A stretch of 35,394 nucleotides of DNA. Source: an uncultured Erysipelotrichaceae bacterium (lineage in GTDB: Bacteria; Bacillota_I; Bacilli_A; RF39; UBA660). The DNA lies in the NCBI GenBank assembly GCA_902793315.1, contig CADBCT010000004.1:36573-71966 (forward strand), written 5' to 3'. Of the stretch, positions 2,529 to 35,193 are shown piece by piece. Below the pieces are notes generated by a model. That model did no database searches. It saw nothing but the letters and a program-made list of their open reading frames with translations, and was not told where the DNA came from. The translations under genes were made by a program, and so were the position numbers. Every line of letters starts with the position of its first letter. The stretch's first letter is position 1.

Positions 2529-2542
2529 TGACTCTTTTTTTT
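2513..2542 (+). terminator. Terminator after valS
   Basis: AGAGT (2513-2517) pairs with ACTCT (2531-2535), with weaker inner TATT/AATA pairing, and is followed by an eight-T run. It overlaps the valS stop codon. Confidence 0.7.
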
Positions 2543-2577
2543 ATTTATGATAAAATTAATTTAGACTGGAGGTTAAT

Positions 2578-2838
2578 ATGGATAAGTTAGATATGCAAAA
2601 AATTGAAGAAGGTTGTAGTATGCTAAAAGAGGCATCAAACATATTACTAGATCTTAATAAAGATATATTTAAATTAAAAGATTATTGTTCTAAAGATTAT
2701 TTAATGTTAAAAGATTTAAATGTTGAAGATAATATTGATTTATGTGCTAGTCATATTCAAAGTACTGGTGGTTGTTTAGATGATTATATTGAAGATCTTT
2801 TGACCGCAATAAGACAATTAGGTGATGGGGGAGAATAA
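2578..2838 (+). CDS. Small acidic helical protein, unknown function
   Basis: Not recognised. It encodes 86 residues, predicted almost entirely helical, acidic, soluble, with four Cys (near residues 13, 38, 52 and 62) and no signal or membrane segment. The start is ATG 2578 behind CTGGAGG (2566-2572). The stop codon precedes the next gene's ATG by one base, so the two are co-translated, and a GNAT enzyme follows. Size and helical content recall WXG100-type or LXG-accessory partners of type VII secretion, but there is no WXG motif and no secretion gene nearby, so this is only a shape resemblance. A weak -10 (TAAAAT near 2550) lies between the valS terminator and this gene. Confidence 0.75.
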   Translation: MDKLDMQKIEEGCSMLKEASNILLDLNKDIFKLKDYCSKDYLMLKDLNVEDNIDLCASHIQSTGGCLDDYIEDLLTAIRQLGDGGE

Positions 2839-2839
2839 T

Positions 2840-3316
2840 ATGAATGATGGTATTAGTTACGATTCAAGTAAAGTCGTTGAAGGTGTAAAAGTTATTAATG
2901 ATGATCTTGAGAATTTAGAGAAAGCTAAAAACTTAATTACTAAGGGTTTTGAAACTATAAAAAAAGCTAAAGGTTATGCTGAAGTTGAAAGTAAATTAAT
3001 GATTAAAGATGAAACAATTATTAAAATGTTAGATGATTGTTCTAAGGAATTTATTACACTTTCTACTGATGTATCTTCGCTTGTTAATTCTTTAGAAAAG
3101 TTTGATGAAGTAGATAATAAAAGCACTAATAATTTGAATATGCCTGATAATAATAAAAGTATTACTCAAGATCAAGTAAAAGAAGCTATTAAAGAGAATT
3201 TTACTCATAATGAAGATTTAACTAATATGTTTAATCAAAGTTTATATACTAAACTTAATGAAGAATTAAATAATATGGTTATTGCTGAAGAGGGACTTAA
3301 TAATGGATCTAAATGA
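2840..3316 (+). CDS. Helical protein, unknown function, partner of preceding gene
   Basis: Not recognised. It has 158 residues from ATG 2840, chosen because GGGGGAG (2827-2833) sits six bases upstream; the GTG at 2822 would lie too far inside the preceding gene. The first ~100 residues look like two or three amphipathic helices, followed by an Asn-rich linker (NKSTNNLNMPDNNKS) and a further helical tail. There is no signal peptide or membrane span. Its 3' end overlaps the GNAT gene by 14 bases. Together with the 86-residue protein it could form a helical heterodimer; this is inference from size, adjacency and composition only. Confidence 0.75.
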   Translation: MNDGISYDSSKVVEGVKVINDDLENLEKAKNLITKGFETIKKAKGYAEVESKLMIKDETIIKMLDDCSKEFITLSTDVSSLVNSLEKFDEVDNKSTNNLNMPDNNKSITQDQVKEAIKENFTHNEDLTNMFNQSLYTKLNEELNNMVIAEEGLNNGSK

Positions 3317-3914
3317 GTTAATAATTAGAAAACCAACTTCTGATGATGATTTAGAAAAGATAGCTGAATTACTATATAATACTGATCCATATATTTATCC
3401 ATATTGGTTTGAAACTCTAGATAAATGTAAAAAAGAATTAACTCCATTATTATTAGAAAAGAATTTCTTTTTTGCATTAGATCATTTATATATTACAATT
3501 GATTCTAATAATAATGATATTATTGGAGTAATTTGTATTCTAGATAAGAATGATGATTTAAGTTATGATTATAGTGAATTAAAGAAAAAGAATGAACGTT
3601 ATAAATTTACAATTGAAAATTACATTGAAGGATTAATTGAAGAAGTAGATAATGCTGATTTTGCATACATTTCTAATGTTTGTGTTGATGCTAATTATCG
3701 AGGAAAACATATTGGAAAAACAATGTTAAATTATGTAATAGATATTTATAAAAAGAAATTATATGATTATATTGTCTTAGATGTTTTAGCAGAGAATCCA
3801 GGAGCTATTAAGTTATATCAAAACTTAGGTTTTGAACAATTTACAGAAGTTTTTCAAGGATTCAATGATCCTACAAAAAAACGACCGGATGTTTTTTCAA
3901 TGAAAACAAAGTAA
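3303..3914 (+). CDS. GNAT-family N-acetyltransferase
   Basis: Acetyl-CoA-dependent N-acetyltransferase of 203 residues; substrate unknown. The GNAT fold is seen in the beta4/motif A region (ISNVCVDANYRGKHIGKTML, with the R-G-x-x-I-G acetyl-CoA pyrophosphate loop) and in motif B (ENPGAIKLYQNLGFEQ). The start ATG 3303 lies eight bases after GAGGG (3290-3294); the upstream in-frame TTG lacks a ribosome binding site. The N-terminal half contains an unusually long, charged segment between beta2 and motif A. It is the last gene of a three-gene unit, closed by a perfect 12-bp terminator. Protein versus small-molecule acetylation cannot be decided. Confidence 0.9.
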   Translation: MDLNELIIRKPTSDDDLEKIAELLYNTDPYIYPYWFETLDKCKKELTPLLLEKNFFFALDHLYITIDSNNNDIIGVICILDKNDDLSYDYSELKKKNERYKFTIENYIEGLIEEVDNADFAYISNVCVDANYRGKHIGKTMLNYVIDIYKKKLYDYIVLDVLAENPGAIKLYQNLGFEQFTEVFQGFNDPTKKRPDVFSMKTK

Positions 3915-8245: not shown

Positions 8246-10318
8246 GTGAAAGTAGTTCTTCAGGACGGAATTAAAGATTGCGGTATTTGTTCTCTTTTAT
8301 CTATTGTTAGATTTTATGGTGGAGAAGTATCTAAAGAATATTTAAGGGAGATAACTAATACTACTAAGGATGGTGTTTCTTTTTATAATCTAATTGAAGG
8401 CGCGAAGAAAATAGGATTTGATGCAATTGGGCTATCTGGAAATATTGAAGATATTGATGTAAATAACTTACCTTGTATAGCTCATTTCATTATTAATAAA
8501 AGCTATAAACACTTTGTAGTTTTGTATGATTTTGATAAAAAGAAAAAACAAGTTACTTTAATGGATCCTGCTAAAGGCAAAAAAATAATCTCTATTTCAG
8601 AGTTTAACCTATTATCCAGCAATAATTATATATTCTTAAAACCAATAAAAAAACTACCAATAATGCAGAAGAAAAATATAATTTATAAAAATATTATCGA
8701 ATTATTTAAAATGAATAAAAAATTGTTGCTTTCTATAGTTATACTAACATTCTCATACTTTACTTTTAATGTACTTACCTCATTTCATTTTAAATACTTA
8801 TTAGAATATTCAATAAATTATAACTTAACTAAGAATATATATTATCTAAGTATTATTATGATAGTATTCTATTTTTTTAAAAATAGTAGTAATTTATTAA
8901 GAAATATTTTACTTAGTAAATGGACTATCTTCTTTGATAATGAAATAACTACTAATACTTATAGACAATTACTTTTACTTCCATATTTATATTATAAAAA
9001 TAGAACTACTGGTGAAGTTATTTCAAGATTCAAAGATTTAAATACTATAAGAAGCTTTATCAATAGATTCTTCTGCATTATTTCTACTGATTTAATTAGT
9101 ATTATTATATTCTTTATTATAATGTTTTCTTATAATAAAAAACTTACATTATATTTAATAATTCCTACTATTTGTCTAATACTATATCATTTCTTAATTA
9201 GTCCTAAAAAGAAAAAATATATTAAGAATATTAGTACCAAACAAGATATTATTAATTCATATCTCATTCAAGGTATAAGCAATGTTGATACTGTAAAGGG
9301 AAGTCATTTAGAAAAAAGATTAATTGATAAGTTTACTATTAATTATAAAGCTTTTTTAGAAAATATTTATTCTTATAACATGTTATTAGAAAGATATAGT
9401 TTTAATAAAAACCTTCTCAATGACTTTTCTTTATTAATTATCTTCGGTTTAGGATCTTATTATGTTATAAAAGGCAATTTATCTCTAAATAATCTTATCG
9501 TGTATCAACTCTTTTTTTCATATTTTAATTCTAACTTTCATAATTTAATAAGCATCTTAGAAGAATATAATTCTTATAAAGTAGCTCTCAATAGAGTTGA
9601 AGAAATATTTATGATTAATAAAGATAATTTTACTAATAATTATTTTTATCTGGCTTTTACTTTGAACGGAAGTATTATTTATAAAAATTTGACTTATAAA
9701 GTAGGAAGTAAGTTTTTGTTTAAAGATTTGAATTTAAGCATTAAGCAGGGTGAGAAAATTTTACTTAGTGGCGAAAGTGGTAGTGGTAAAAGCACTCTCA
9801 TGAAAATGCTTTTAAGATATGTTGAAGTTGATTTTGATAAGATTAAAATTGCTGATATTGATATTAATCATTATCATCTGGAAAATATTAGATCAAATAT
9901 TACTTATGTAACAAGTAATGAGTATTTGTTTACGGATACTATTAAAAATAATATTGTTCTATATAAGGATTATTCAGATGAAGAAGTTAATGAAGTTTGT
10001 AGAATCTGCTCCGTAGATGATATTGTTAAAAACAATGAAAATAGTTATGAAGCTTTAATTGAAGAAAATGGCTTTAATTTTAGTAATGGAGAAAGACAAA
10101 GAATTATTCTTGCTAGAAGTATTATTAAAAAGAGTAATATTTACATTTTTGATGAAGCTTTAGCTGGAATAGATGTTAATAGAGAAAAAAAGATTTTAGA
10201 GAATATTTTTAAATACTTGGATGATAAAACAATTATTGTAATATCACATCGATTTAATAATAAAAAACTATTTGATCGAGTATTAAAATTGGAAAAGGCA
10301 AAGATTTATGAAAACTAG
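8246..10318 (+). CDS. C39-peptidase ABC exporter for double-glycine peptides
   Basis: A PCAT-type exporter of 690 residues that cleaves the leader of bacteriocin precursors after GG and exports the peptide. Order: C39 peptidase (about 1-140; Gln6, Cys12 in DCGICSL, His89 in KHFVVLYD, Asp107 in MDPAKG), a six-helix membrane domain (about 155-435), and a nucleotide-binding domain with Walker A GESGSGKST (from residue 509), signature FSNGERQR, Walker B IYIFDEA and switch His in VISHRF. The Q-loop position reads YVTSNEYLF, with Ser or Thr where Gln is usual. The start is GTG 8246, the first codon after a stop, with GGAGGTG 12 bases upstream, a longish spacing. It overlaps the next gene and heads the peptide cluster. 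Confidence 0.95.
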   Translation: MKVVLQDGIKDCGICSLLSIVRFYGGEVSKEYLREITNTTKDGVSFYNLIEGAKKIGFDAIGLSGNIEDIDVNNLPCIAHFIINKSYKHFVVLYDFDKKKKQVTLMDPAKGKKIISISEFNLLSSNNYIFLKPIKKLPIMQKKNIIYKNIIELFKMNKKLLLSIVILTFSYFTFNVLTSFHFKYLLEYSINYNLTKNIYYLSIIMIVFYFFKNSSNLLRNILLSKWTIFFDNEITTNTYRQLLLLPYLYYKNRTTGEVISRFKDLNTIRSFINRFFCIISTDLISIIIFFIIMFSYNKKLTLYLIIPTICLILYHFLISPKKKKYIKNISTKQDIINSYLIQGISNVDTVKGSHLEKRLIDKFTINYKAFLENIYSYNMLLERYSFNKNLLNDFSLLIIFGLGSYYVIKGNLSLNNLIVYQLFFSYFNSNFHNLISILEEYNSYKVALNRVEEIFMINKDNFTNNYFYLAFTLNGSIIYKNLTYKVGSKFLFKDLNLSIKQGEKILLSGESGSGKSTLMKMLLRYVEVDFDKIKIADIDINHYHLENIRSNITYVTSNEYLFTDTIKNNIVLYKDYSDEEVNEVCRICSVDDIVKNNENSYEALIEENGFNFSNGERQRIILARSIIKKSNIYIFDEALAGIDVNREKKILENIFKYLDDKTIIVISHRFNNKKLFDRVLKLEKAKIYEN

Positions 10319-21368: not shown

Positions 21369-24300
21369 ATGAACGATAAAATGCAGATATTACTTGATAG
21401 AATAAATATTGATGAGTCATCTTATCAATATTTTTCTGGTGCTGCTTTAACTAAAATTAAAATTAACCCTAAAAAAGACAGTTGGATTATTTATATTGAT
21501 ATTGATAATTTATTACCAGTTGAAGTATATGAGGAAATAGAAAGTAAAAAGAATTTGTTGGACAAGAATGCTAGTAGTATTGATTTTATTTATAATGTTA
21601 AGTATAAGAAGAATTCTTTATATAAAGATTATTATCCATATTTATTAAGTACTTTAAAGAAAGACTTAAAAGTTATTGAAATATTTGAAGATTGTATGGA
21701 AGTTCAAGATGATAGATTAGTCTTAGTAGTTTCTAATTCTCAAGAACAAGCTAAATTAGAAAGAGTACTTAATAAGATGCATAAGTTTTATAAAAAATTA
21801 GGTTATGAAGAAGAAATAAATATTATTATTAATCATAAAGAAGATATTCAAGATGCTATTCAAAAAGAATTAGAAGATACTTTAAAAGATCTTAAGATAG
21901 TTGAAGATAAAGAACCACCTAAAGAAAAAGAAAAAAAGTTATTTCGTAGGGAAAAGAAAGATGAAAATAGTATCTTTGGAGGAAAAGTTATTAAAGATAA
22001 GCCAATTAAGATTAAAACTATTATTGGTGAAGATGGAGATGTTACTGTAGAAGCTAAAGTCTTTGGTACTGATTTCTTTGAATCTAGTAAAACTGATTTT
22101 AAGATTATTACTTTAAAAATTACTGATTATTCTGATAGTATGTATTGTAAATTATTTGTTAGAGATGATGAAGAATACAGTAAATTAAAAAAAGAGTTAA
22201 AGGAAGGTAATTGGTATTTAATAAAGGGTTATACTAAGAATGATCCATATTCTAAAGAAATAGTTTTGAATGCTAGAGATATAGTTAAAATAGAAAAAGA
22301 TGAAGAAGAAATAAAAGATACTGCTTTAATTAAAAGAGTAGAATTGCATGCTCATAGTAAAATGAGTCAAATGGATGGAGTAGCTGATGAAACTGATTTA
22401 GTTAGTACTGCTATGAAGTTTGGTATGAAGGCAGTTGCTATTACTGATCATAATGGAGTACAAGGATTCCCTCATGTCTTTAATATGGTTACTTCTCATA
22501 ATAAAAAGTTAAAAGAAGGAGAAGAACCTTTTAAAGCTATTTATGGGGCGGAACTTACAATGATTGATGATTCAGTTAATATTGTACTTAGACCTACTGA
22601 TAAAGTAATGTTAGATGAAACATATGTGGTGTTTGACTTTGAAACTACTGGATTTAATGCTGGTGGAGAAGATTCTATTATTGAAATAGGTGCTGTTAAG
22701 ATTAAAGATGGGGTTATATTAGAAAGATATGATGAATTAATTAATCCTGGAAGACCTTTACCAGATAAGATAGTAGAATTAACTAATATTACTGATGAAA
22801 TGTTAAAAGATAAAGATAATGAAGAGGATGCAGTCAAGAGATTCATCGAATGGTTTGGAGATTTACCAATGGTTGCTCATAATGCTAAGTTTGATGTATC
22901 TTTCTTAGAAATGGCCTATAAAAAATATGATTTAGGAGAATTTAAAAATCCAGTTATTGATACTTTAGAATTATCAAGAACTTTGGATACAGCTTATGCT
23001 AGACATAGTTTAAGTGCTTTAGTAAAAAGATATGAGGTTCCTTGGGATGAAGAAGCTCATCATAGAGGAGATTATGATGCTGAAGGAACAGCTTTAGTCT
23101 TCCATAAGATGTTAAAGAAATTATCCAATCGTAATATTGAAAAAATGAATGAATTAGATAAATTAGTATCTAAAGAAGATATTCATAAATACGGTCGTGC
23201 TCATCATATTAATTTATTAGTAAAGAATAAAACTGGTTTAAAGAATTTATTTAAATTAGTTAGTTTAGCTAATACTACTTATTTATATAAAACGCCTAGA
23301 ATACTTAGAAGTGTTGTTGAGGAACATAGAGAAGGTTTATTAATAGGTAGCGGTTGCTATGAGGGAGAAGTCTTCAATGAAGCTAAGTCAAAGAGTGATG
23401 AAGATTTATCTAATATTATTAGATTCTATGATTATGTAGAAGTACAACCAATAGAATGTTATGATCATTTAATTCAAACAAGTGATTTTGCTACTAAAGT
23501 TGAAGTTGCTGCTAATATTGAAAAGATTGTTAGGGTTACTGAAGAAGCTGGTAAAATTATTGTTGCTACTGGTGATGTTCATCATATAAAACGTGATGAT
23601 AAAATTTATCGTGAAATAATAGTTAATCAAAAAGTTCCTGGTGGAGGTAGACATCCTCTGGCTAAGAGTAATATTACAAGTATACCTTCAAATCATTTTA
23701 GAACTACTAATGAAATGTTAGAAGACTTTAGTTTCTTAGGACCAGATAAAGCTTATGAAATAGTAGTTGAAAATACTAATAAAATAGCTGATATGTGTGA
23801 AATAGTAGAAGTTATTATTGATACTGGAGGTATTCCATTCTCTCCAAGAGTTAAATCAGATGATGGAAAAGAATACTTAGATTGTCCTGTTGTAGTAACT
23901 GATCTTGTTTATACAAAAGCAGCAGATTGGTATGGAGATCCTCTTCCATATGCAATAGAAGAGAGAATTGCTACTGAATTATATGGAGATATTGTCTTTA
24001 AGATGTTAAGTTCTGAATTAAAAGATAAAGGACTTGAAGGAGAAGACTTTGATATAGAAGTTCATAAAAGATTACATGAAGAAATATTAAAGGGTTCAGA
24101 TAATATTAAATCCTTAGTAAAAGAATATGTTAAGAAAACTAGTGAAGAAGAATTAGATGAAAAAGGATTAGAAAAAGCAACTAAGAAAGCTCTAGGTGGA
24201 GTTATTGGTGGAGGATTTGATCCAATCTATTTGATTTCACAGAGATTAGTTAAACATTCTAATGATGAAGGATATTTAGTTGGATCACGTGGTTCTGTTG

Positions 24301-25985
24301 GATCAAGCTTTGTTGCTACTATGATGGGTATTACTGAAGTTAATCCTTTATCACCACATTATCGTTGTGAAAAATGCAAATTAAGTATTTTTGAAGATGA
24401 AGATGGTAATTCATTCGGAGAAAACTATTCTTCAGGATTTGATTTACCTGATAAAGAATGTCCAAAATGTCATATTCCAATGATTAAAGACGGACAAGAT
24501 ATGCCATTTGCTACTTTCTTAGGATTTAATGCCGATAAAGTACCGGATATTGATTTAAATTTCTCAGATTTAAATCAAGCATCTGCTCATGCTTATACAA
24601 AAGTATTATTTGGAGAGAATAACGTTTATAGGGCAGGTACAATTGGTACTGTAGCTGATAAAACAGCTTATGGGTTTGTAAAAGGCTATCTAGAAGAAAA
24701 AGGCATTGATGATATGCGTAGTGCTGAAATAGAAAGATTAGCTATGGGATGTACAGGAGTAAAAAGAACTACTGGACAACATCCGGGAGGAATAGTAGTT
24801 ATTCCAGATTATATGGAAGTATCTGACTTTACTCCATATCAATATCCAGCAGATGATGCAACAGCTGAATGGAAGACAACTCACTTTGATTACCATTCAA
24901 TTGATCAATGTTTGTTAAAATTAGATATACTAGGTCATTCTGATCCGACACAATTAAGATTAATTCAAAATCAATCAGGAACAGATGTTTTAAAAGTACC
25001 ATTAGATGATAAAGACACAATGAGTATATTTACTTCTACTGATATTTTAGGAGTTACTAAAGAACAAATTATGTGTAATACTGGTACATTAGGTATACCT
25101 GAGTTTGGTACTCCATTTACAATAAAACTAGTTGAAGATACTAAACCAACTACTTTTGGAGAATTAGTTAAAATATCAGGATTATCTCATGGTACTGATG
25201 TTTGGTTAGGAAATGCTCAAGAATTAATTCAAAAGAATGTTGTACCATTTAAAGATACAATTGGTTGTCGTGATGATATTATGGTTTATTTAATGTATAA
25301 TGGAGTAGCTCCAATAAAAGCTTTTAAGATTATGGAGTTTGTTCGTAAAGGAAAAGCTTCTAAAGATCCAGATGCTTGGAAAGAACATGTAAAAACAATG
25401 CAAGATGCTAAGATACCAGAATGGTTTATTGAGTCTTGTAGGAAGATTAAATATATGTTCCCGAAAGCACATGCTGCTGCCTATGTAATAAGTGCCTTTA
25501 GAATAGCTTGGTATAAAGTACATATGCCTGTATATTTCTATTCATCATGGTATTCATGTAAGGCAACTGATGTAGATGTTGAAAATATGATTAAAGGTTA
25601 TAAAGCGATTAAAGCTAGACTAGAGGATATTGAAGAAAAAGGTTATGAAGCTACTAATAAAGAAAATGGTCAGGCTGAATCGTTAAAGGTAGCTTTAGAA
25701 GCTACTGCTAGAGGAATAAAATTCTTAAATGTTAATTTATATGAATCTGAAGCAACTACTTGGAAAACTAAAAATGATAAAGAGATTTATCCACCGTTTA
25801 GTGCAATAGATGGTTTAGGTGATACAGTTGCTAAAAAGATTGTTGAAGAAAGAGAAAAGGGAAAATTCTTAAGTATTGAAGATGTTCAAAAAAGAGCTAA
25901 AGTATCTCAGACTTTAATAGATAAAATGAAAGAAATGGGCATTTTAGAAGGATTACCTGATTCAAATCAATTATCATTATTTTAG
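21369..25985 (+). CDS. polC: DNA polymerase III alpha subunit, PolC type
   Basis: Replicative DNA polymerase of low-GC Gram-positives, complete at 1538 residues (usual 1430-1470; the excess lies in the N-terminal and inter-domain loops). Order: N-terminal domain (1-220), OB fold (about 225-315), PHP part 1 (RVELHAHSKMSQMDG, from about 324), DEDD proofreading exonuclease (FDFETTG about 421; HNAKFDVSF; HRGDYDAE), PHP part 2 (TGDVHHIKRDD), zinc site (CEKC and CPKCH), palm with catalytic PDIDLNFS (about 1060) and C-terminal helix-hairpin-helix. It ends NQLSLF, a match to the beta-clamp-binding QxxLF motif. ATG 21369 follows AGGAGGG. It heads the polC...rimP-nusA region. Confidence 0.98.
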   Translation: MNDKMQILLDRINIDESSYQYFSGAALTKIKINPKKDSWIIYIDIDNLLPVEVYEEIESKKNLLDKNASSIDFIYNVKYKKNSLYKDYYPYLLSTLKKDLKVIEIFEDCMEVQDDRLVLVVSNSQEQAKLERVLNKMHKFYKKLGYEEEINIIINHKEDIQDAIQKELEDTLKDLKIVEDKEPPKEKEKKLFRREKKDENSIFGGKVIKDKPIKIKTIIGEDGDVTVEAKVFGTDFFESSKTDFKIITLKITDYSDSMYCKLFVRDDEEYSKLKKELKEGNWYLIKGYTKNDPYSKEIVLNARDIVKIEKDEEEIKDTALIKRVELHAHSKMSQMDGVADETDLVSTAMKFGMKAVAITDHNGVQGFPHVFNMVTSHNKKLKEGEEPFKAIYGAELTMIDDSVNIVLRPTDKVMLDETYVVFDFETTGFNAGGEDSIIEIGAVKIKDGVILERYDELINPGRPLPDKIVELTNITDEMLKDKDNEEDAVKRFIEWFGDLPMVAHNAKFDVSFLEMAYKKYDLGEFKNPVIDTLELSRTLDTAYARHSLSALVKRYEVPWDEEAHHRGDYDAEGTALVFHKMLKKLSNRNIEKMNELDKLVSKEDIHKYGRAHHINLLVKNKTGLKNLFKLVSLANTTYLYKTPRILRSVVEEHREGLLIGSGCYEGEVFNEAKSKSDEDLSNIIRFYDYVEVQPIECYDHLIQTSDFATKVEVAANIEKIVRVTEEAGKIIVATGDVHHIKRDDKIYREIIVNQKVPGGGRHPLAKSNITSIPSNHFRTTNEMLEDFSFLGPDKAYEIVVENTNKIADMCEIVEVIIDTGGIPFSPRVKSDDGKEYLDCPVVVTDLVYTKAADWYGDPLPYAIEERIATELYGDIVFKMLSSELKDKGLEGEDFDIEVHKRLHEEILKGSDNIKSLVKEYVKKTSEEELDEKGLEKATKKALGGVIGGGFDPIYLISQRLVKHSNDEGYLVGSRGSVGSSFVATMMGITEVNPLSPHYRCEKCKLSIFEDEDGNSFGENYSSGFDLPDKECPKCHIPMIKDGQDMPFATFLGFNADKVPDIDLNFSDLNQASAHAYTKVLFGENNVYRAGTIGTVADKTAYGFVKGYLEEKGIDDMRSAEIERLAMGCTGVKRTTGQHPGGIVVIPDYMEVSDFTPYQYPADDATAEWKTTHFDYHSIDQCLLKLDILGHSDPTQLRLIQNQSGTDVLKVPLDDKDTMSIFTSTDILGVTKEQIMCNTGTLGIPEFGTPFTIKLVEDTKPTTFGELVKISGLSHGTDVWLGNAQELIQKNVVPFKDTIGCRDDIMVYLMYNGVAPIKAFKIMEFVRKGKASKDPDAWKEHVKTMQDAKIPEWFIESCRKIKYMFPKAHAAAYVISAFRIAWYKVHMPVYFYSSWYSCKATDVDVENMIKGYKAIKARLEDIEEKGYEATNKENGQAESLKVALEATARGIKFLNVNLYESEATTWKTKNDKEIYPPFSAIDGLGDTVAKKIVEEREKGKFLSIEDVQKRAKVSQTLIDKMKEMGILEGLPDSNQLSLF

Positions 25986-27411: not shown

Positions 27412-28464
27412 ATGAAAAAGAAAGTTGGTTTATTATTGGTATTAATGATAGCGTTATTAATCGTTCCAGTAGGAGCTAAATCATCTAATAATTTTATTGC
27501 TGATAATAGTATAAAATTAGCAGATAGTATTGAAGCAACAACTTTTGCAGCAGGTAATACTGTTAATATTGCTTCAAATATTGATGGGGCTTTATTTGTA
27601 GCTGGTAATGATGTAACACTAAATAGTAGTCAAGACCTTTTATTTGCAGCTGGTAATATGATTTTAATAGAAGGAGTAAATACTAAAGATGCATTTATTG
27701 CTGGATCAAGTATTGATGTTAAACCATCAATAATTAGAGATTTATATGCAACAGCTCAAACTATTAATATTGATTCTGAAATCTCAAGAAATGCTTATTT
27801 AGGAGGAGAAACAGTAGTCATTAATTCAAAGATTAATGGAGATGCTCAAATAGATGCAGAAACTATAAAAATAGGAAAAAATGCAGCTATTACTGGTACT
27901 TTAAATTATCCTGAAAACGCTAAAATTACTATTACAAATGGAGCAGTTATAAATAAAACAAAAACATACAAAAATAATATATCTACAGAAAAAACTATGG
28001 CTTCTAAATTATTAGATAGGTTATATGCTTTCTTAGGAATGTTATTAATAGGATTAATTTTAATGGCTTTAAATAAAAAGGTATTTACTAAGATTGAAAA
28101 GATTAATAAAGACTTAAGTACATTTGCTAAGAATTTAGGTATTGGATTTGTGTTCTTAGTAATAGTACCAGTTGCTGCTATTATAGCTATGTGTACAGTT
28201 ATTGGAGTACCTTTAGCTATTATTTCATTATTAATTTATGGAATTATGATTTATTTATCTGTTATTCCAACAGCTTACTATTTAGGAAATATTATTTTAA
28301 AAGATTATATCAAAAATAAATATGTATTATTCATAGTATCATTATTAATAATTTATGTATTAAAAATGATTCCAGGACTTGGTGGTTTAGTAACATTCAT
28401 CTCATTATGTTTTGGATTAGGTGTTTATACTGAATTGTTAAAAAGTAATATTAAAGCAAAATAG
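27412..28464 (+). CDS. Exported bactofilin-like beta-helix protein with C-terminal membrane domain
   Basis: It has 350 residues. A cleavable signal peptide (1-22, ending VGAKSS) is followed by a repetitive right-handed beta-helix-type region (about 30-185: TFAAGNTVNI, LFVAGNDVTL, LFAAGNMILI, AFIAGSSIDV; spacing about 17-20 residues) of the polymer-forming, bactofilin-like type. After a linker come four transmembrane helices (about 203-345). The repeats face the cell surface, unlike cytoplasmic bactofilins, so this may be an envelope shell or adhesive element. Function unknown. GGAGGAG precedes the ATG. Monocistronic, ending in a terminator that overlaps the stop. Confidence 0.88.
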   Translation: MKKKVGLLLVLMIALLIVPVGAKSSNNFIADNSIKLADSIEATTFAAGNTVNIASNIDGALFVAGNDVTLNSSQDLLFAAGNMILIEGVNTKDAFIAGSSIDVKPSIIRDLYATAQTINIDSEISRNAYLGGETVVINSKINGDAQIDAETIKIGKNAAITGTLNYPENAKITITNGAVINKTKTYKNNISTEKTMASKLLDRLYAFLGMLLIGLILMALNKKVFTKIEKINKDLSTFAKNLGIGFVFLVIVPVAAIIAMCTVIGVPLAIISLLIYGIMIYLSVIPTAYYLGNIILKDYIKNKYVLFIVSLLIIYVLKMIPGLGGLVTFISLCFGLGVYTELLKSNIKAK

Positions 28465-28484
28465 AGTCAAATGACTCTATTTTT
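28458..28484 (+). terminator. Terminator after bactofilin-like gene
   Basis: AAAATAGAGTCA (28458-28469) pairs with TGACTCTATTTT (28472-28483), T-run; stop codon in the 5' arm. Confidence 0.9.
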
Positions 28485-28492
28485 GTTATAAT
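28484..28492 (+). promoter_or_regulatory. Extended -10 promoter of vanY-truB
   Basis: TGTTATAAT (28484-28492) directly follows the preceding terminator and lies 15 bases before the ATG; any -35 would be inside the hairpin. Confidence 0.75.
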
Positions 28493-28507: not shown

Positions 28508-29905
28508 ATGAAATATACAGTTTTAGTTAATAAGAATAATAGAATTAGTAATAATTATTTAAATAAAATAGATTTAGTTATGACTAAAAATGTTTTAGAA
28601 GAAGATATTTATATAGAGCAAGAGACATATAATAATTACTTAAAATTAAAAAAATTTATAAGTAATGAATTAAATATTGATATTGGTATAGATACTGCTT
28701 ATCGAGATAATAATCATCAAGAAAGGATTTATAACCATTATTTAGAAACTAAAGGAAAAGACTATTGTGATAAATATGTAGCTTTAGTAGGTTATTCTGA
28801 ACATCATACAGGTTTGGCTATAGATATTGATGTAAAAATAAATAATGATTATATGTATAGTGATGATAATTTTGATTTAGCTGAACCAGTTCTAAAGAAA
28901 ATTCATCCTTATCTTCATAATTTTGGTTTTATTTTAAGATATCCGGAGAATAAAGAAAATATTACAGGATATAATTATGAACCATGGCATATAAGATATG
29001 TTGGTAAAATACCAGCTACAATAATTTATGAGAATAATTTGACTTTAGAAGAATATTTAAATGACTTTGGATGCATACTTTATATTAATAAACCAAAAGA
29101 TATTACTTCTTTTGATGTAGTTAATAAGATAAGTAATATATTTGGAATAAAAAAAGTAGGTCATACTGGAACTCTTGATCCTTTAGCTACAGGAGTTATG
29201 CTAGTATGCGTTGGAAAAGCAACTAAAATAGTTGAATTATTAACCGCAGAAGATAAAGAGTATATTGCTGAAGTTAAATTAGGTATTAAAACTGATACAT
29301 TAGATATTACTGGAGAAGTTTTAGAAACTAGAGATGTTCCTAAAGATTTGAATATAATTGAGACATTAAATAGTTTTAAAAAAACTTATCTTCAAGAAGT
29401 ACCTATTTATTCAGCTGTTAAAGTAAATGGTAAAAAACTATATGAATATGCTCGAGAAGAAAAGAAAGTAGAGTTGCCTAAAAAAGAAGTAACTATCAAA
29501 GAAATAGAATTATTAAATATGAATAATAATACTTTTAAGTTTAGAACACTAGTTACTAAAGGCTGTTATATAAGAAGTTTAATTAATGATATCTGTATTA
29601 CCTTAAATACTATTGGTACTATGACTTCTTTAGTTAGAACTAAACAAGGTAAAATAGATATAAGTAATACTAATTGTCTAGAGGAAATAGAAAGTAATAA
29701 TTATAAGTATTATAAAATAGAAGAAGTTTTAGACTATAAAACTATTGAAGTTGATAGTAATTTGAATAAAAAAATAAGTAATGGAGTAAAACTATCTAAT
29801 GAATGGAATATTAAAGATAAAGTTATTTTTACATATAATAATAAACTGTTAGGTATTTATGAAAATAACAATAATGAGTTAAGAGTCTGGAAGAATTTTG
29901 TTTAG
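28508..29905 (+). CDS. truB: Fusion: VanY-type D,D-carboxypeptidase domain + TruB pseudouridine synthase
   Basis: A single open frame of 465 residues with two unrelated enzymes. Residues 1-187 are an M15B peptidase with the zinc motif SEHHTGLAIDID (from Ser97; His99, Asp106) and EPWH (His161), typical of D-Ala-D-Ala carboxypeptidases. Residues 188-465 are TruB, which makes psi55 in the tRNA T-loop: CILYINKPKDITSFDVV, catalytic Asp224 in GHTGTLDPLATGVML, KGCYIRSL and a C-terminal PUA-like region. There is no signal peptide, so the peptidase domain would be cytoplasmic. No ATG or GTG restarts TruB at the junction; TTG 29039 is in frame but lacks a clear ribosome binding site. Lies 5' of the rimP operon, unlike Bacillus where truB follows rbfA. 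Confidence 0.93.
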   Translation: MKYTVLVNKNNRISNNYLNKIDLVMTKNVLEEDIYIEQETYNNYLKLKKFISNELNIDIGIDTAYRDNNHQERIYNHYLETKGKDYCDKYVALVGYSEHHTGLAIDIDVKINNDYMYSDDNFDLAEPVLKKIHPYLHNFGFILRYPENKENITGYNYEPWHIRYVGKIPATIIYENNLTLEEYLNDFGCILYINKPKDITSFDVVNKISNIFGIKKVGHTGTLDPLATGVMLVCVGKATKIVELLTAEDKEYIAEVKLGIKTDTLDITGEVLETRDVPKDLNIIETLNSFKKTYLQEVPIYSAVKVNGKKLYEYAREEKKVELPKKEVTIKEIELLNMNNNTFKFRTLVTKGCYIRSLINDICITLNTIGTMTSLVRTKQGKIDISNTNCLEEIESNNYKYYKIEEVLDYKTIEVDSNLNKKISNGVKLSNEWNIKDKVIFTYNNKLLGIYENNNNELRVWKNFV

Positions 29906-30898: not shown

Positions 30899-30923
30899 TT
30901 ATTATTTGATAGAGGGTGATAGA

Positions 30924-31175
30924 TTGAAGACAAAGATTAGTAAATTAGTAAATGATTCAATCAAAGAATTAAATGTATTTGTAGATGATGCATTTACTAG
31001 TGAAGAAGAAGGTCAAAAGATTCTTAATATTGTGCTTGATAGTGAAGAAGTAATTGATTTAAATAAAGTAACTGAAGCTTCAAGAATAATTAATAAGATA
31101 ATTGATCAGCATGAAGAATTATTAGATGATGTTGATGTGTTAGATATCTATTCTAAAGAGAAAGGAGATATGTAA
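30924..31175 (+). CDS. rimP: Ribosome maturation factor RimP, N-terminal domain only
   Basis: RimP assists 30S assembly. It encodes 83 residues from TTG 30924, five bases after GAGGGTG. The sequence covers only the N-terminal alpha/beta domain: LVNDSIKELNVFVDDAFTSE, then GQKILNIVLDSEEVIDLNKV, TEASRIINKIID and LDDVDVLDIYSKEKGDM. Usual RimP is about 150 residues with a C-terminal SH3-like domain that contacts S12. The stop comes one base before nusA, so no second domain is encoded here. Position before nusA, as in Bacillus, supports the call. Confidence 0.85.
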   Translation: MKTKISKLVNDSIKELNVFVDDAFTSEEEGQKILNIVLDSEEVIDLNKVTEASRIINKIIDQHEELLDDVDVLDIYSKEKGDM

Positions 31176-31176
31176 T

Positions 31177-32415
31177 TTGGCAAAGAAGAAAGAAGAAAAA
31201 GAATTTAAAATGAATGGTGCAGAATTTAAAAAAGCGCTTGATAATATTGTTGCAGAAAAAGATATTGATCCTGAAATAGTATATAGTGCTATGGAATTAG
31301 CTTTAACTTCTGCATATAAAAAGAATTTTAATTCTAAAACTAATGTAAAAGTAGTATTTGATCGTGATACAGGAGATATTAAAGTATATTCATTCTTAAC
31401 AGTAGTACCAGATGATAAGATGACTAAGGAAGAATATGAAGATGCTTTGTTTGAAAGTTATGCTGAAGATGATGAATTAGATACTAAACCTGATGTAGTA
31501 GAAGAAACTACTGAAGAAGGAGAAGAAGTAGAAGAGAAGAAAGAACTACCTTCATTCTTTAATAAAGAAACAGAAATAAAATTAAGTGATGCTAAAAAGA
31601 TTGATAAGACTTTAGAAATTGGAGATACTATTGATACTGAAGTAACTCCTAAAGATTTTGGTAGAGTTGCAACTTCTACAGCTAAACAAGTAGTAGTTCA
31701 AAAAATAAGAGAAGCTGAAAGAAATAGTATTATGGATGAATTTGGTGATAAACAAGATGAACTATTAGTTGGTACAGTAGCACTTGAAGATACAGATAAT
31801 TACTTTATTGATTTAGGTAGAACTAATGGTATTTTACCTAAGAAAGATTGTATTCCTGGAGAAAAGATTGAGATGGGATCACAAATAAAAGTATATGTAT
31901 CTAAAGTAGATAATAATGGTAAGAATTTATTAATATTACTTAGTAGAAGTCATTATGGTTTTGTTAAAAGACTATTTGAATTAGAAATACCAGAAATTAA
32001 TGATGGTACTGTAATGATTTATAGTGTTGCTAGAGATGCAGGTAACAGAAGTAAAGTGGCAGTTTATTCTGAAAATCCTAATGTAGATCCAATTGGAGCT
32101 TGTATTGGAGAAAAAGGTAGTAGAATTGCTAGAATAATTAATGAATTACATGGAGAAAAGTTAGATGTAATTAAATATGATGCAGATCCTGCAGTATTTA
32201 TTGAAAATGCTTTAAGTCCTGCTAAAGATTTAACAGTAGCTATTACTGATCCAAAGAAATTAGAAGCAATGGTTATTGCTGATGGAGATAACTTCTCACT
32301 AGCTATTGGTAAAAAAGGACAAAATGCACGTCTTGCTACACGTTTAACTAAGTTTAAGAAGATTGATATTAAGACAACAGAACAAGCAAGAGAAGCAGGA
32401 ATTAACTTTAGATAG
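31177..32415 (+). CDS. nusA: Transcription termination/antitermination factor NusA
   Basis: RNA polymerase-associated elongation factor acting in pausing, termination and antitermination. It has 412 residues: an N-terminal RNAP-binding domain (1-180) with a long acidic insert (about 88-128, rich in Glu and Asp), S1 domain (about 185-255), KH1 with GACIGEKGSR and KH2 with IGKKGQNARL. It lacks C-terminal acidic repeats, as usual in Firmicutes. The start is TTG 31177 with AAAGGAG upstream, overlapping rimP closely. The insert is longer than in Bacillus NusA. Confidence 0.97.
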   Translation: MAKKKEEKEFKMNGAEFKKALDNIVAEKDIDPEIVYSAMELALTSAYKKNFNSKTNVKVVFDRDTGDIKVYSFLTVVPDDKMTKEEYEDALFESYAEDDELDTKPDVVEETTEEGEEVEEKKELPSFFNKETEIKLSDAKKIDKTLEIGDTIDTEVTPKDFGRVATSTAKQVVVQKIREAERNSIMDEFGDKQDELLVGTVALEDTDNYFIDLGRTNGILPKKDCIPGEKIEMGSQIKVYVSKVDNNGKNLLILLSRSHYGFVKRLFELEIPEINDGTVMIYSVARDAGNRSKVAVYSENPNVDPIGACIGEKGSRIARIINELHGEKLDVIKYDADPAVFIENALSPAKDLTVAITDPKKLEAMVIADGDNFSLAIGKKGQNARLATRLTKFKKIDIKTTEQAREAGINFR

Positions 32416-32424
32416 GAGGTATTT

Positions 32425-32688
32425 ATGAAACAAAGAAAAATACCTTTAAGAACTTGTGTAGTAACTAAAGAATCTCTTCCTAAGAGTGAATTACTAAGAA
32501 TAGTAAGAACTCCATATGGAGAAGTATTACCTGATGAAACAGGAAAGTTAAATGGAAGAGGAGCATATATTAAAAAAGATATAGAAGTTCTAGAAAAAGC
32601 TCGTAAGAGTAAGATATTAGAAAAAAAATTAGAATGTGAAATAGAGGATAGTGTCTATGACGAAATAAAAGAAATTATAGAAAAGTGA
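32425..32688 (+). CDS. ylxR: YlxR family RNA-binding protein
   Basis: It has 87 residues with the DUF448/YlxR fold: PLRTCVVTKESLPKSELLRI near the N-terminus and the signature LNGRGAYIKKD. YlxR binds RNA and has been linked to RNase P regulation in Bacillus. AGGAGG precedes the ATG by seven bases. It lies between nusA and infB; ylxQ, the L7Ae-type gene usually next, is absent. Confidence 0.95.
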   Translation: MKQRKIPLRTCVVTKESLPKSELLRIVRTPYGEVLPDETGKLNGRGAYIKKDIEVLEKARKSKILEKKLECEIEDSVYDEIKEIIEK

Positions 32689-32699
32689 GGTGAGTCTTA

Positions 32700-34838
32700 A
32701 TGATGACTTTAGAAGATTATGCACAAGATGTAGGAAAAACAGTAGAAGAAATAAAAGCTTTGTGTGATAAAGTGGGTATTAACTATGAAGATGAAAACTC
32801 TTTATTAGATGATATTAGTATTACTTTACTAGATAATGAAATGCAAGATGAAGAAGATTATATTGGAGAAGATAGTGAAGATTTAGAAGAACAAAGAAAT
32901 TTAGAAGAAGTAGAAAATAAAGCAGAAGAGTTAGCTTCAAATACTAGAATTGATTTAGATGATACAACTTCATTTACTAAAGTTAAACAAACTAAAGAAG
33001 CTAAGAAGACTGATAATAAGAAAGACTTCTTAAAAGAAAGAAAGAAGCTATATAAACATCGTGAAAAATTACAGAGTAATGAAACAGAAGTAGCAGATAA
33101 TGTTATTCTTTATAAGAATGGAATGACTGTTACTGATTTAGCTACTATATTAGATATTAAACCTACTGATTTAATTAAAAAATTAATGGGATTAGGTGTA
33201 ATGGCTTCTCTAAATCAAGCACTTGATTATGATACTGTTGAAGTTATTGTTACAGATTACGATAAAGTATTAAAGAAAGAAGAAACAGCAGATATTTCTA
33301 ATTTTGAAAATTATGAAATTGAAGATAAAGAAGAGGACTTAGTAGAAAGACCTCCAGTTGTTACTATTATGGGTCATGTTGACCATGGTAAAACTACTTT
33401 ATTAGATTATATTAGAAATAGTGATGTAGTAAGTGGAGAAGCAGGTGGAATTACTCAAGCTATTGGTGCTTACTCTGTTAAGTGTAATGATAAGAGAATC
33501 ACTTTTATTGATACACCAGGACATGCTGCTTTTACTGAGATGAGAGCTAGAGGAGCTAGTATTACAGATATAGTAATTATTATAGTTGCTGCAGATGATG
33601 GTGTAATGCCTCAAACTAAGGAAGCAATTGATCATGCTAAAGCTGCAGGAGTACCTATTATTGTTGCTATTAATAAGATTGATAAGCCTGAAGCAAATGT
33701 TGATAGAATAATGACTGCTTTAGTAGAAAATGGTTTAACTCCTGAAGAATGGGGAGGAGAAACAATTGTTAATAAGATTTCTGCTAAATCAGGACAAGGG
33801 GTTGATGAATTATTAGAAAGTATTTTATTAGTTGCTGAAATGCATGAATATAAAGCTAATCCATCACGTTATGCAAGTGGTGCTGTAGTAGAAGCAAGAA
33901 AAGATTCAAAAGTTGGTTCTATCGCAACATTATTAGTACAAAATGGAACTATTAGATTAGGAGATCCAATTGTTATTGGTAATTTTGCAGGTAAAGTTAG
34001 GACATTAAAGAATGATAAAGGACAAAATATTACAGAAGCAGGTCCATCTACACCGGTAGAAGTAACCGGTATTTCGGAAGTACCAAGTGCTGGTGATAAA
34101 TTCATGGCTTTTGAAACAGAAAAACAAGCAAAAGAAATAGCTAGTGAAAGAACCCTTCGTTCAAAAGAAAAAGATACTAACTTTAGTGGTATGACTTTAG
34201 AAGATTTATTTGGAAGAATAAAAGAAGGTCAAAAAGAAATTAAAGTAGTATTAAAAGCAGATGTTAATGGTTCTTTAGAAGCAGTAAGAGGTGCTTTAGA
34301 AAAGATTGATGTAGAAGGTGTAAAAGTATCTGTAATAAGAGGTGGAGTAGGAGCTATTACTGAAAGTGATGTAGTATTAGCTAGTGCTTCAAATGCTATT
34401 ATTATTGGATTTAATGTTAGAGGTACAGGTTCTACTATTGATTATGCTAAACAATATGGTATTGAAATAAAAACATATGATATTATTTATAAAGTAGTAG
34501 AAGACATGGAAAAAGCTATGAAAGGTATGTTAGATCCAGAATTTGAAGAAAAAGTAGTAGGTACTGCTGAAATAAGACAAATCTTTAAATTCTCTAAAGT
34601 TGGTTTAATAGCTGGATGTCATGTTACTAGTGGTATTATTAGAAACAATTTAAAAGCTCGTATAATTAGAGATGATATAGTAGTATACAATGGTTCAGTA
34701 AAAACATTACAACATGAAAAAGATCAAGTAAAAGAAGTTAAAAAGGATATGGACTGTGGTATGACTCTAGAAAATTGTCAAGATTATAAAGAGGGAGATA
34801 TCATTGAAGTATACGAACTAGTAGAAATTAAGAGGTAA
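32700..34838 (+). CDS. infB: Translation initiation factor IF-2
   Basis: GTPase that recruits fMet-tRNA to the 30S subunit and promotes 50S joining. It has 712 residues: an N-terminal acidic, low-complexity region with a shortened IF2N module (VTDLATILDIKPTDLIKKLM about 140-165), G domain with GHVDHGKTT (from about 225), DTPGHAAF and NKID, then domains II-IV ending in the C-terminal beta-barrel that binds fMet (FKFSKVGLIAGCHVTSGIIR). ATG 32700 follows GAGGTGAG. The YlxP gene found next to infB in Bacillus is absent; rbfA follows directly. Confidence 0.98.
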   Translation: MMTLEDYAQDVGKTVEEIKALCDKVGINYEDENSLLDDISITLLDNEMQDEEDYIGEDSEDLEEQRNLEEVENKAEELASNTRIDLDDTTSFTKVKQTKEAKKTDNKKDFLKERKKLYKHREKLQSNETEVADNVILYKNGMTVTDLATILDIKPTDLIKKLMGLGVMASLNQALDYDTVEVIVTDYDKVLKKEETADISNFENYEIEDKEEDLVERPPVVTIMGHVDHGKTTLLDYIRNSDVVSGEAGGITQAIGAYSVKCNDKRITFIDTPGHAAFTEMRARGASITDIVIIIVAADDGVMPQTKEAIDHAKAAGVPIIVAINKIDKPEANVDRIMTALVENGLTPEEWGGETIVNKISAKSGQGVDELLESILLVAEMHEYKANPSRYASGAVVEARKDSKVGSIATLLVQNGTIRLGDPIVIGNFAGKVRTLKNDKGQNITEAGPSTPVEVTGISEVPSAGDKFMAFETEKQAKEIASERTLRSKEKDTNFSGMTLEDLFGRIKEGQKEIKVVLKADVNGSLEAVRGALEKIDVEGVKVSVIRGGVGAITESDVVLASASNAIIIGFNVRGTGSTIDYAKQYGIEIKTYDIIYKVVEDMEKAMKGMLDPEFEEKVVGTAEIRQIFKFSKVGLIAGCHVTSGIIRNNLKARIIRDDIVVYNGSVKTLQHEKDQVKEVKKDMDCGMTLENCQDYKEGDIIEVYELVEIKR

Positions 34839-34842
34839 TATT

Positions 34843-35193
34843 ATGGCAAGTATCAAAATAGAAAGATTAAATCATGCTTTTCAAGAAGAAATAAGTATGA
34901 TACTTATGAGAGAAGTAAAAGATGAAGATATTAAATTTGTAACTGTTACAGGAGTAGATACAACTAGTGATTTAAGTTTTGCAAAAGTATATTACACAGT
35001 CTTAGATGATTCTAAGAAAGAGAAAACTGCAGAAGCTTTAGAAAAAGCAGCATCTTTTATTAGAACAAAACTTGCTGAAAGAGTAGAAATAAGACATACT
35101 CCTGAATTAAAATTTATTTATGATACATCTATTGCTTATGGAGAACATATTGATAAATTAATTGATGAAATTAATGAAAAGAAGACCAATTAG
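34843..35193 (+). CDS. rbfA: Ribosome-binding factor A
   Basis: RbfA binds the 30S subunit near helix 1/helix 44 and assists 16S 5' maturation. It has 116 residues with the KH-like core: IKERLNHAFQEEISMIL-type N-terminus, VTGVDTTSDLSFAKVYYTVL and the C-terminal IRHTPELKFIYDTSIAYGEH. It is the last gene of the operon here; truB, which normally follows, is fused to VanY upstream. Stop codon within the terminator stem. Confidence 0.97.
   Translation: MASIKIERLNHAFQEEISMILMREVKDEDIKFVTVTGVDTTSDLSFAKVYYTVLDDSKKEKTAEALEKAASFIRTKLAERVEIRHTPELKFIYDTSIAYGEHIDKLIDEINEKKTN

Follow-up and report, generated by a model that had tools for sequence, protein, structure and literature searches.

A predicted cytosolic VanXY-like peptidase fused in frame to TruB, inherited in one family of uncultured Bacilli and hollowed or lost in some relatives

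The gene analyzed here joins two kinds of enzymes that are each known from described systems, M15B peptidases and TruB pseudouridine-55 synthases (2ab4, 1k8w). Among the former, VanXYC from Enterococcus gallinarum (4mur, 4oak) is a D,D-dipeptidase/D,D-carboxypeptidase that has no signal peptide, and the L,D-carboxypeptidases LdcB/DacB and YodJ (4ox3, 4ox5, 4mph) share the M15B fold and act on the cell wall. The motifs SxHxxGxAxD and ExxH are given as those of M15B/VanY peptidases in passages of two papers (PMC3610138, PMC4790382), and the roles of residues R120, Q125, S151, H153, D160, E204 and H207 of SpLdcB are described in part of a third (PMC4087270), which also presents this enzyme as devoid of the bisubstrate loop. 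No published description of a peptidase-TruB fusion was found in the open-licence PMC literature, as covered by titles and abstracts and partly at that, and a term search of the available part of a paper on domain architectures (PMC7955657) did not retrieve VanY.

The window, i.e. the whole stretch of DNA that was analyzed (35,394 nucleotides of contig CADBCT010000004.1), carries a single ATG-started frame that remains open over 28508..29905 (+ strand, as for all features of the window given below) and encodes 465 amino acids. Residues 1-185 (28508..29062) constitute a VanXY-like M15B peptidase domain and residues 186-465 (29063..29902) a TruB domain. The Pfam VanY domain (PF02557) matches residues 34-167 (E 4.9e-29, 101.2 bits for a gathering cut-off of 25), TruB_N matches residues 210-355 (E 4.9e-51) and the NCBIfam TruB model TIGR00431 scores 211 bits, above its equivalog cut-off of 151.45. 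The structure predicted from the window protein and 43 fused relatives has a pLDDT of 94.1 and a pTM of 0.88. The N-terminal part of this model matches VanXYc (4oak, Z 25.4, 188 residues aligned) and VanYB (5zhf, Z 25.4), and residues 184-465 match TruB 2ab4 (Z 30.6, 280 residues aligned), indicating that the TruB half is full-length, C-terminal domain included. In the same model, a short helix at the junction (residues 180-186, LEEYLND, 29045..29065) leads into the first TruB strand (188-195). The TruB half contains the GHTGTLDP stretch and, within it, the catalytic Asp D224 (29177-29179), invariant in the 44 distinct intact fusions. A search of viral structures gave no match to both domains among the matches listed.

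Both M15B motifs were found in the window protein, SxHxxGxAxD at residues 97-106 (S97, H99 and D106; 28796..28825) and ExxH at residues 158-161 (E158 and H161; 28979..28990). Matching of spacing maps R66, Q71, S97, H99, D106, E158 and H161, but not W160, to the SpLdcB residues; R66 and Q71 (28703..28720) are thus the equivalents of the substrate-recognition residues R120 and Q125. R66, Q71, S97, H99, D106, W160 and H161 are invariant in 44/44 fusions and E158 is present in 43/44. The exception, L020 (genome G035), is an otherwise intact fusion in which Thr takes the place of the catalytic Glu158, which may mark the onset of hollowing. In the region of the bisubstrate beta4-alpha5 loop, the aligned stretch of the window is nine residues longer than that of SpLdcB (122 versus 113), as compared by length. 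The window protein has no hydrophobic N-terminus ahead of the peptidase domain; this domain begins at the start codon, which leaves no room for a signal peptide. The in-frame fusion, the intact zinc residues, the complete TruB with its catalytic Asp and the lack of a signal peptide, all put forward by the sequence-only reading, are thus corroborated by the open frame, the domain matches, the predicted folds and the zinc ligands kept in every intact fusion. Its VanY-type label holds for membership in the M15B/VanY family, but the NCBIfam scores put the domain nearer to VanXY than to the VanY enzymes that are secreted.

Estimates of omega (NG86) on 14 pairs range from 0.10 to 0.55 for the peptidase half and from 0.12 to 0.32 for TruB, indicating that both halves are under purifying selection. 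Furthermore, the identities of the two halves correlate (r 0.69, 946 pairs), with exceptions such as L018/L022 and L015 versus L011/L013. In these fusions, the peptidase halves are 49-52% identical where the TruB halves are 79% identical, which suggests possible domain replacement.

The 39 genomes of the window's genus include 23 with an intact fusion, three with a hollowed one (G021, G025, G029), nine with an unfused TruB and four without detected TruB. The genome from which the window comes, of 1.07 Mb and about 70% complete, contains a single TruB gene along with two more VanY-type genes with long hydrophobic N-terminal parts. The sample of the order (146 genomes, evenly drawn) is made up of one family and 75 genera and includes three genomes of the window's genus; the 143 others comprise 11 intact fusions (genera g28, g32, g62, g74 and g91) and two hollowed ones (g75). 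In the class sample (296 genomes), no VanY-TruB fusion was seen outside the family among the matches listed. A scan of 84,980 species genomes, from which 80 loci were kept, found fusions labelled as uncultured Bacilli, Bacillales, Erysipelotrichaceae or Firmicutes, among others, several of them from the rumen or other ruminant gut. All fetched loci together gave 85 non-duplicate TruB frames, and merging the two pieces of the broken L113 (5466-6317 +, the truB of G014, interrupted by one in-frame stop) left 84 rows: 44 fused, six hollowed and 34 unfused. The search of related genomes for the same junction was therefore positive, and the 43 other distinct intact fusions, 47-78% identical to that of the window, exclude chance or an assembly error. 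The 28508-29905 fusion is genuine, long-standing and passed on by descent, and represents a lineage-wide domain architecture.

Many members of the genus have lost the peptidase domain: no intact fusion was seen in 16 genomes (including the four without detected TruB) and only two of these 16 have a standalone cytosolic substitute. The domain is thus dispensable; the junction helix is not essential either, since nine members have an unfused TruB (in one of them, truB is interrupted by a stop). Short standalone genes for cytosolic VanXY-like proteins were found in none of the 34 genomes with an intact fusion versus at least 29 of the 148 others (Fisher p 0.003, kinship ignored; p 0.13 within the order only and 0.16 within the genus only). 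These tallies were made by hand (frames of at most 211 amino acids, with a match starting at query residue 1-5); the counts in unfused genomes are lower bounds, the fused genomes outside the genus having been rechecked in full, and among the 29 are counted G101, with a cytosolic domain attached to a HAD, and G162, with a frame that could derive from an exported form by truncation. The data are therefore no more than suggestive of the intact fusion and the standalone gene excluding each other.

In the TruB tree (a quick tree), fused, hollowed and unfused members of the genus are intermixed, and a clade of fused and hollowed forms without unfused TruBs was rejected (p-AU 0.019). A single clade of fused peptidase domains was not rejected (p-AU 0.49); the peptidase tree is poorly resolved, with standalone cytosolic forms near or among the fused ones at weak support. 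The simplest account would be a single fusion event, then loss on several occasions and hollowing on a few; more than one fusion is possible.

The gene truB usually lies after rbfA, as it does, for instance, in the unfused relatives L043 and L044. In the window, the fusion gene lies between polC (21369..25985, Pfam DNA_pol3_alpha) and the rimP-nusA-ylxR-infB-rbfA cluster (30906..35193, Pfam). The RimP of the window (30906-31175) is only 89 amino acids long, and only the N-terminal RimP domain was matched. In the window's genus, fused and unfused truB genes alike are located between polC and rimP wherever the contig shows it. It had been proposed that truB moved from after rbfA to before rimP, which is right for the window but not as a part of the fusion: since seven fusions (genus g74 and three BRZ genomes; L130-L133, L037, L039, L040) still follow rbfA and truB precedes rimP in unfused species of the genus, the fusion and the relocation are two distinct events. 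An intrinsic terminator of the upstream gene with an 11-bp stem (28458..28483) lies just 5' of the fusion gene; the terminator scan gave two sites, this stem on both strands, versus a mean of 0.1 in shuffled sequences. It is followed by a candidate extended -10 of the fusion gene (TGTTATAAT, 28484..28492), read from the sequence, which the promoter scan did not report for lack of a matching -35; the string TTATAAT recurs 5' of several fused relatives.

Six relatives (L104, L105=L034, L106, L038, L134 and L135) carry hollowed fusions. In all six, deletion or degeneration affects the stretch around R66-A92 and the loop that follows D106, and in four the EPWH loop as well. The first strand, the helix after it, strand 140-142 and the C-terminal YVG..A..LEEY segment are still recognizable; at the junction, L180, E181 and Y183 are kept in 6/6 and E182 in 5/6 (Asp in one). 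None of the six retains R66 or S97, and the zinc-ligand positions H99, D106 and H161 persist only in the g75 pair, where E158 is replaced by Cys in L134 and W160 by Gly in L135. Four of the six forms thus clearly have no zinc site, and the g75 pair may be altered rather than dead. The model of the hollowed L034 has a pLDDT of 90.8 and a pTM of 0.85, with block means of 58-91 over the first 70 residues, and its structure comparison lists only pseudouridine-synthase matches. The remnant of L104/L105, which has no zinc ligands, has an omega of 0.34 (95% 0.15-0.66), or 0.43 (0.16-0.82) without its last 32 residues, and that of L134/L135 an omega of 0.32 (0.17-0.55), compared to 0.15 and 0.19 for the TruB halves of the two pairs; these estimates come from two pairs with dS of 1.0-1.4 and one method (NG86). 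They point to purifying selection on the hollowed remnant, the case without a zinc site being that of one species pair, L104/L105.

The nearest standalone relatives of the peptidase half are mostly short cytosolic proteins, from the same family and beyond, and also include exported lipoprotein-like ones. The neighborhoods of 16 of them were listed; they contain Pfam-supported peptidases C26 (L172, L186), M19 (L173) and S51 (L049, L170), a beta-lactamase-like neighbor (L174) and other genes, several of them unrelated, only part of these neighborhoods having been Pfam-scanned. In L186 (3663-6218 +), genes for a C26 peptidase, a VanXY-like peptidase and an F420 gamma-glutamyl-ligase-like protein lie in a row. 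A MurF-like gene, named by eye, precedes Ddl in the five loci read. The window also encodes an ABC transporter with a C39 peptidase domain, of the peptide-exporter type (8246-10318 +). Considering the ligase type (see below), the peptidase neighbors and the lack of export signal, the peptidase half probably serves cytosolic peptidoglycan-peptide turnover rather than resistance. That it would be a cytosolic L,D-carboxypeptidase and the sole enzyme of its kind is weakened by the presence of an S66 (LdcA-type) peptidase in 34 of the 39 genomes of the genus.

Several other explanations were weighed. As a glycopeptide-resistance VanXY, the domain would clear D-Ala-D-Ala in favor of precursors with a terminal D-Ser or D-Lac. 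The best NCBIfam peptidase model is indeed VanXY (NF000380) and VanXYc is a top fold match, but the score of 137.4 bits is under the equivalog cut-off of 250, no van ligase or racemase adjoins the fusion in the window, and the single ligase of the genome scores above two cut-offs for D-Ala-D-Ala ligases and far short of those for D-Ser and D-Lac ligases; resistance is thus highly improbable and was rejected on ligase type and gene context. It is scarcely credible that the fusion is an artefact or yields two proteins in vivo. The sequence-only reading had named as refutations a base error that removed a stop codon and efficient internal initiation of TruB near 29039. The former fails as the junction is common to many genomes. 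For the latter, the window does have an in-frame TTG at 29039..29041, but no Shine-Dalgarno-like tetramer precedes it, only one other relative has TTG at the equivalent residue and 30 of the 44 fusions have no ATG, GTG or TTG anywhere in the 18-codon junction stretch; moreover, a loose Shine-Dalgarno-like tetramer lies ahead of the peptidase start in all 28 upstream regions examined (28 of the 44 fusions, no chance control). Finally, the peptidase could be a sensor whose binding of D-Ala-D-Ala or stem peptides would alter tRNA folding or the activity of TruB and so couple tRNA maturation to the supply of wall precursors. The invariant recognition residues of intact fusions and the fixed domain arrangement suggested by the pTM of the window model would agree with this, but the ligand site is gone from hollowed and unfused species, which keep TruB, making this role very unlikely. 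More generally, because the peptidase half is degenerate or lost in some relatives, the data do not establish the durable functional connection of wall trimming with tRNA modification that was first envisaged.

We favor, with moderate confidence, the view that a VanXY-like zinc D-Ala peptidase of the cytosol and TruB form a two-enzyme fusion that is stably inherited and whose peptidase was repeatedly lost or hollowed. This reading is based on the intact fusions of the genus (23/39) and of the rest of the family (11/143), the invariant residues, the omega values, the p-AU results, the pTM and the peptidase neighbors. In-frame joining of the peptidase gene to truB, in the simplest case a single event, would have been followed by inheritance of the pair in one family of uncultured Bacilli. 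In most lineages, including that of the window, the N-terminal half would be an active cytosolic enzyme trimming D-Ala from D-Ala-D-Ala or soluble stem peptides, and the C-terminal half would make pseudouridine-55 in tRNA. The short helical junction may have made the peptidase scaffold contribute to the way TruB folds or packs; in lineages where the peptidase became dispensable, in-frame deletions would then have taken active-site elements and the remnant would have stayed under selection. The peptidase half would therefore still be an enzyme in most lineages and, in some, perhaps only a TruB appendage. Neutral hitch-hiking, in which adjacent genes fused by stop loss, the enzymes remain independent and hollowed forms are unfinished deletions, is possible but doubtful. 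The nesting of unfused members of the genus among fused ones, which makes repeated complete loss probable, speaks for it, as do the unrelated N-terminal HAD domain on TruB in another family of Bacilli (L210, L211) and the fusions of VanXY-like domains to other enzymes (C26 in L070, HAD in L170), which imply that such fusions arise easily; the purifying selection on the remnants of two pairs and the fact that all six hollowed forms spare the junction helix and similar parts of the scaffold speak against it. We regard as unlikely the wider proposal that a wall peptidase was captured as a TruB accessory domain, its catalytic site then being deleted independently in several lineages and a pseudoenzyme remnant kept under selection, possibly aiding tRNA binding or stability.

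In uncultured gut bacteria with small genomes, cell-wall peptide chemistry and tRNA modification are thus physically joined in a conserved manner. The unexpected part is a peptidase remnant that lacks its zinc site and still appears under selection, in one species pair so far. The series of unfused, fused and intact, fused and hollowed, and lost forms offers a natural experiment on the capture of an enzyme domain, perhaps into a structural appendage. It should also be emphasized that VanY or VanXY matches in such genomes need not signal vancomycin resistance.

Compared to known systems, the peptidase half resembles VanXYC in fold, zinc and catalytic motifs and lack of signal peptide, but it remains under the VanXY equivalog cut-off, is fused to TruB and occurs without a van cluster and with an ordinary D-Ala-D-Ala ligase. 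It shares the recognition residues of LdcB/DacB and YodJ but, unlike them, would be cytosolic. The TruB half has the complete fold, catalytic Asp and TIGR00431 score of ordinary TruB proteins, from which it differs by its N-terminal peptidase and by starting on the helix of that domain. In L170 (3744-4958 +), a cytosolic VanXY-like domain has a C-terminal HAD hydrolase and an S51 peptidase adjoins. Two other fusions come close. The HAD-TruB fusion of two genomes, L210 (G207, 2026-3582 -) and L211 (G396, 1792-3348 -), a 519-aa frame whose HAD was assigned by eye and not by Pfam scan, also places an unrelated cytosolic enzyme on the TruB N-terminus, a HAD hydrolase instead of a peptidase. The C26-VanXY fusion (L070, 6260-7555 +; L071, 7260-8555 +; 432-aa frame) includes, as in the window, a VanXY-like domain in a fusion free of export signal, but it is joined to a C26 peptidase, in keeping with a role in peptide turnover.
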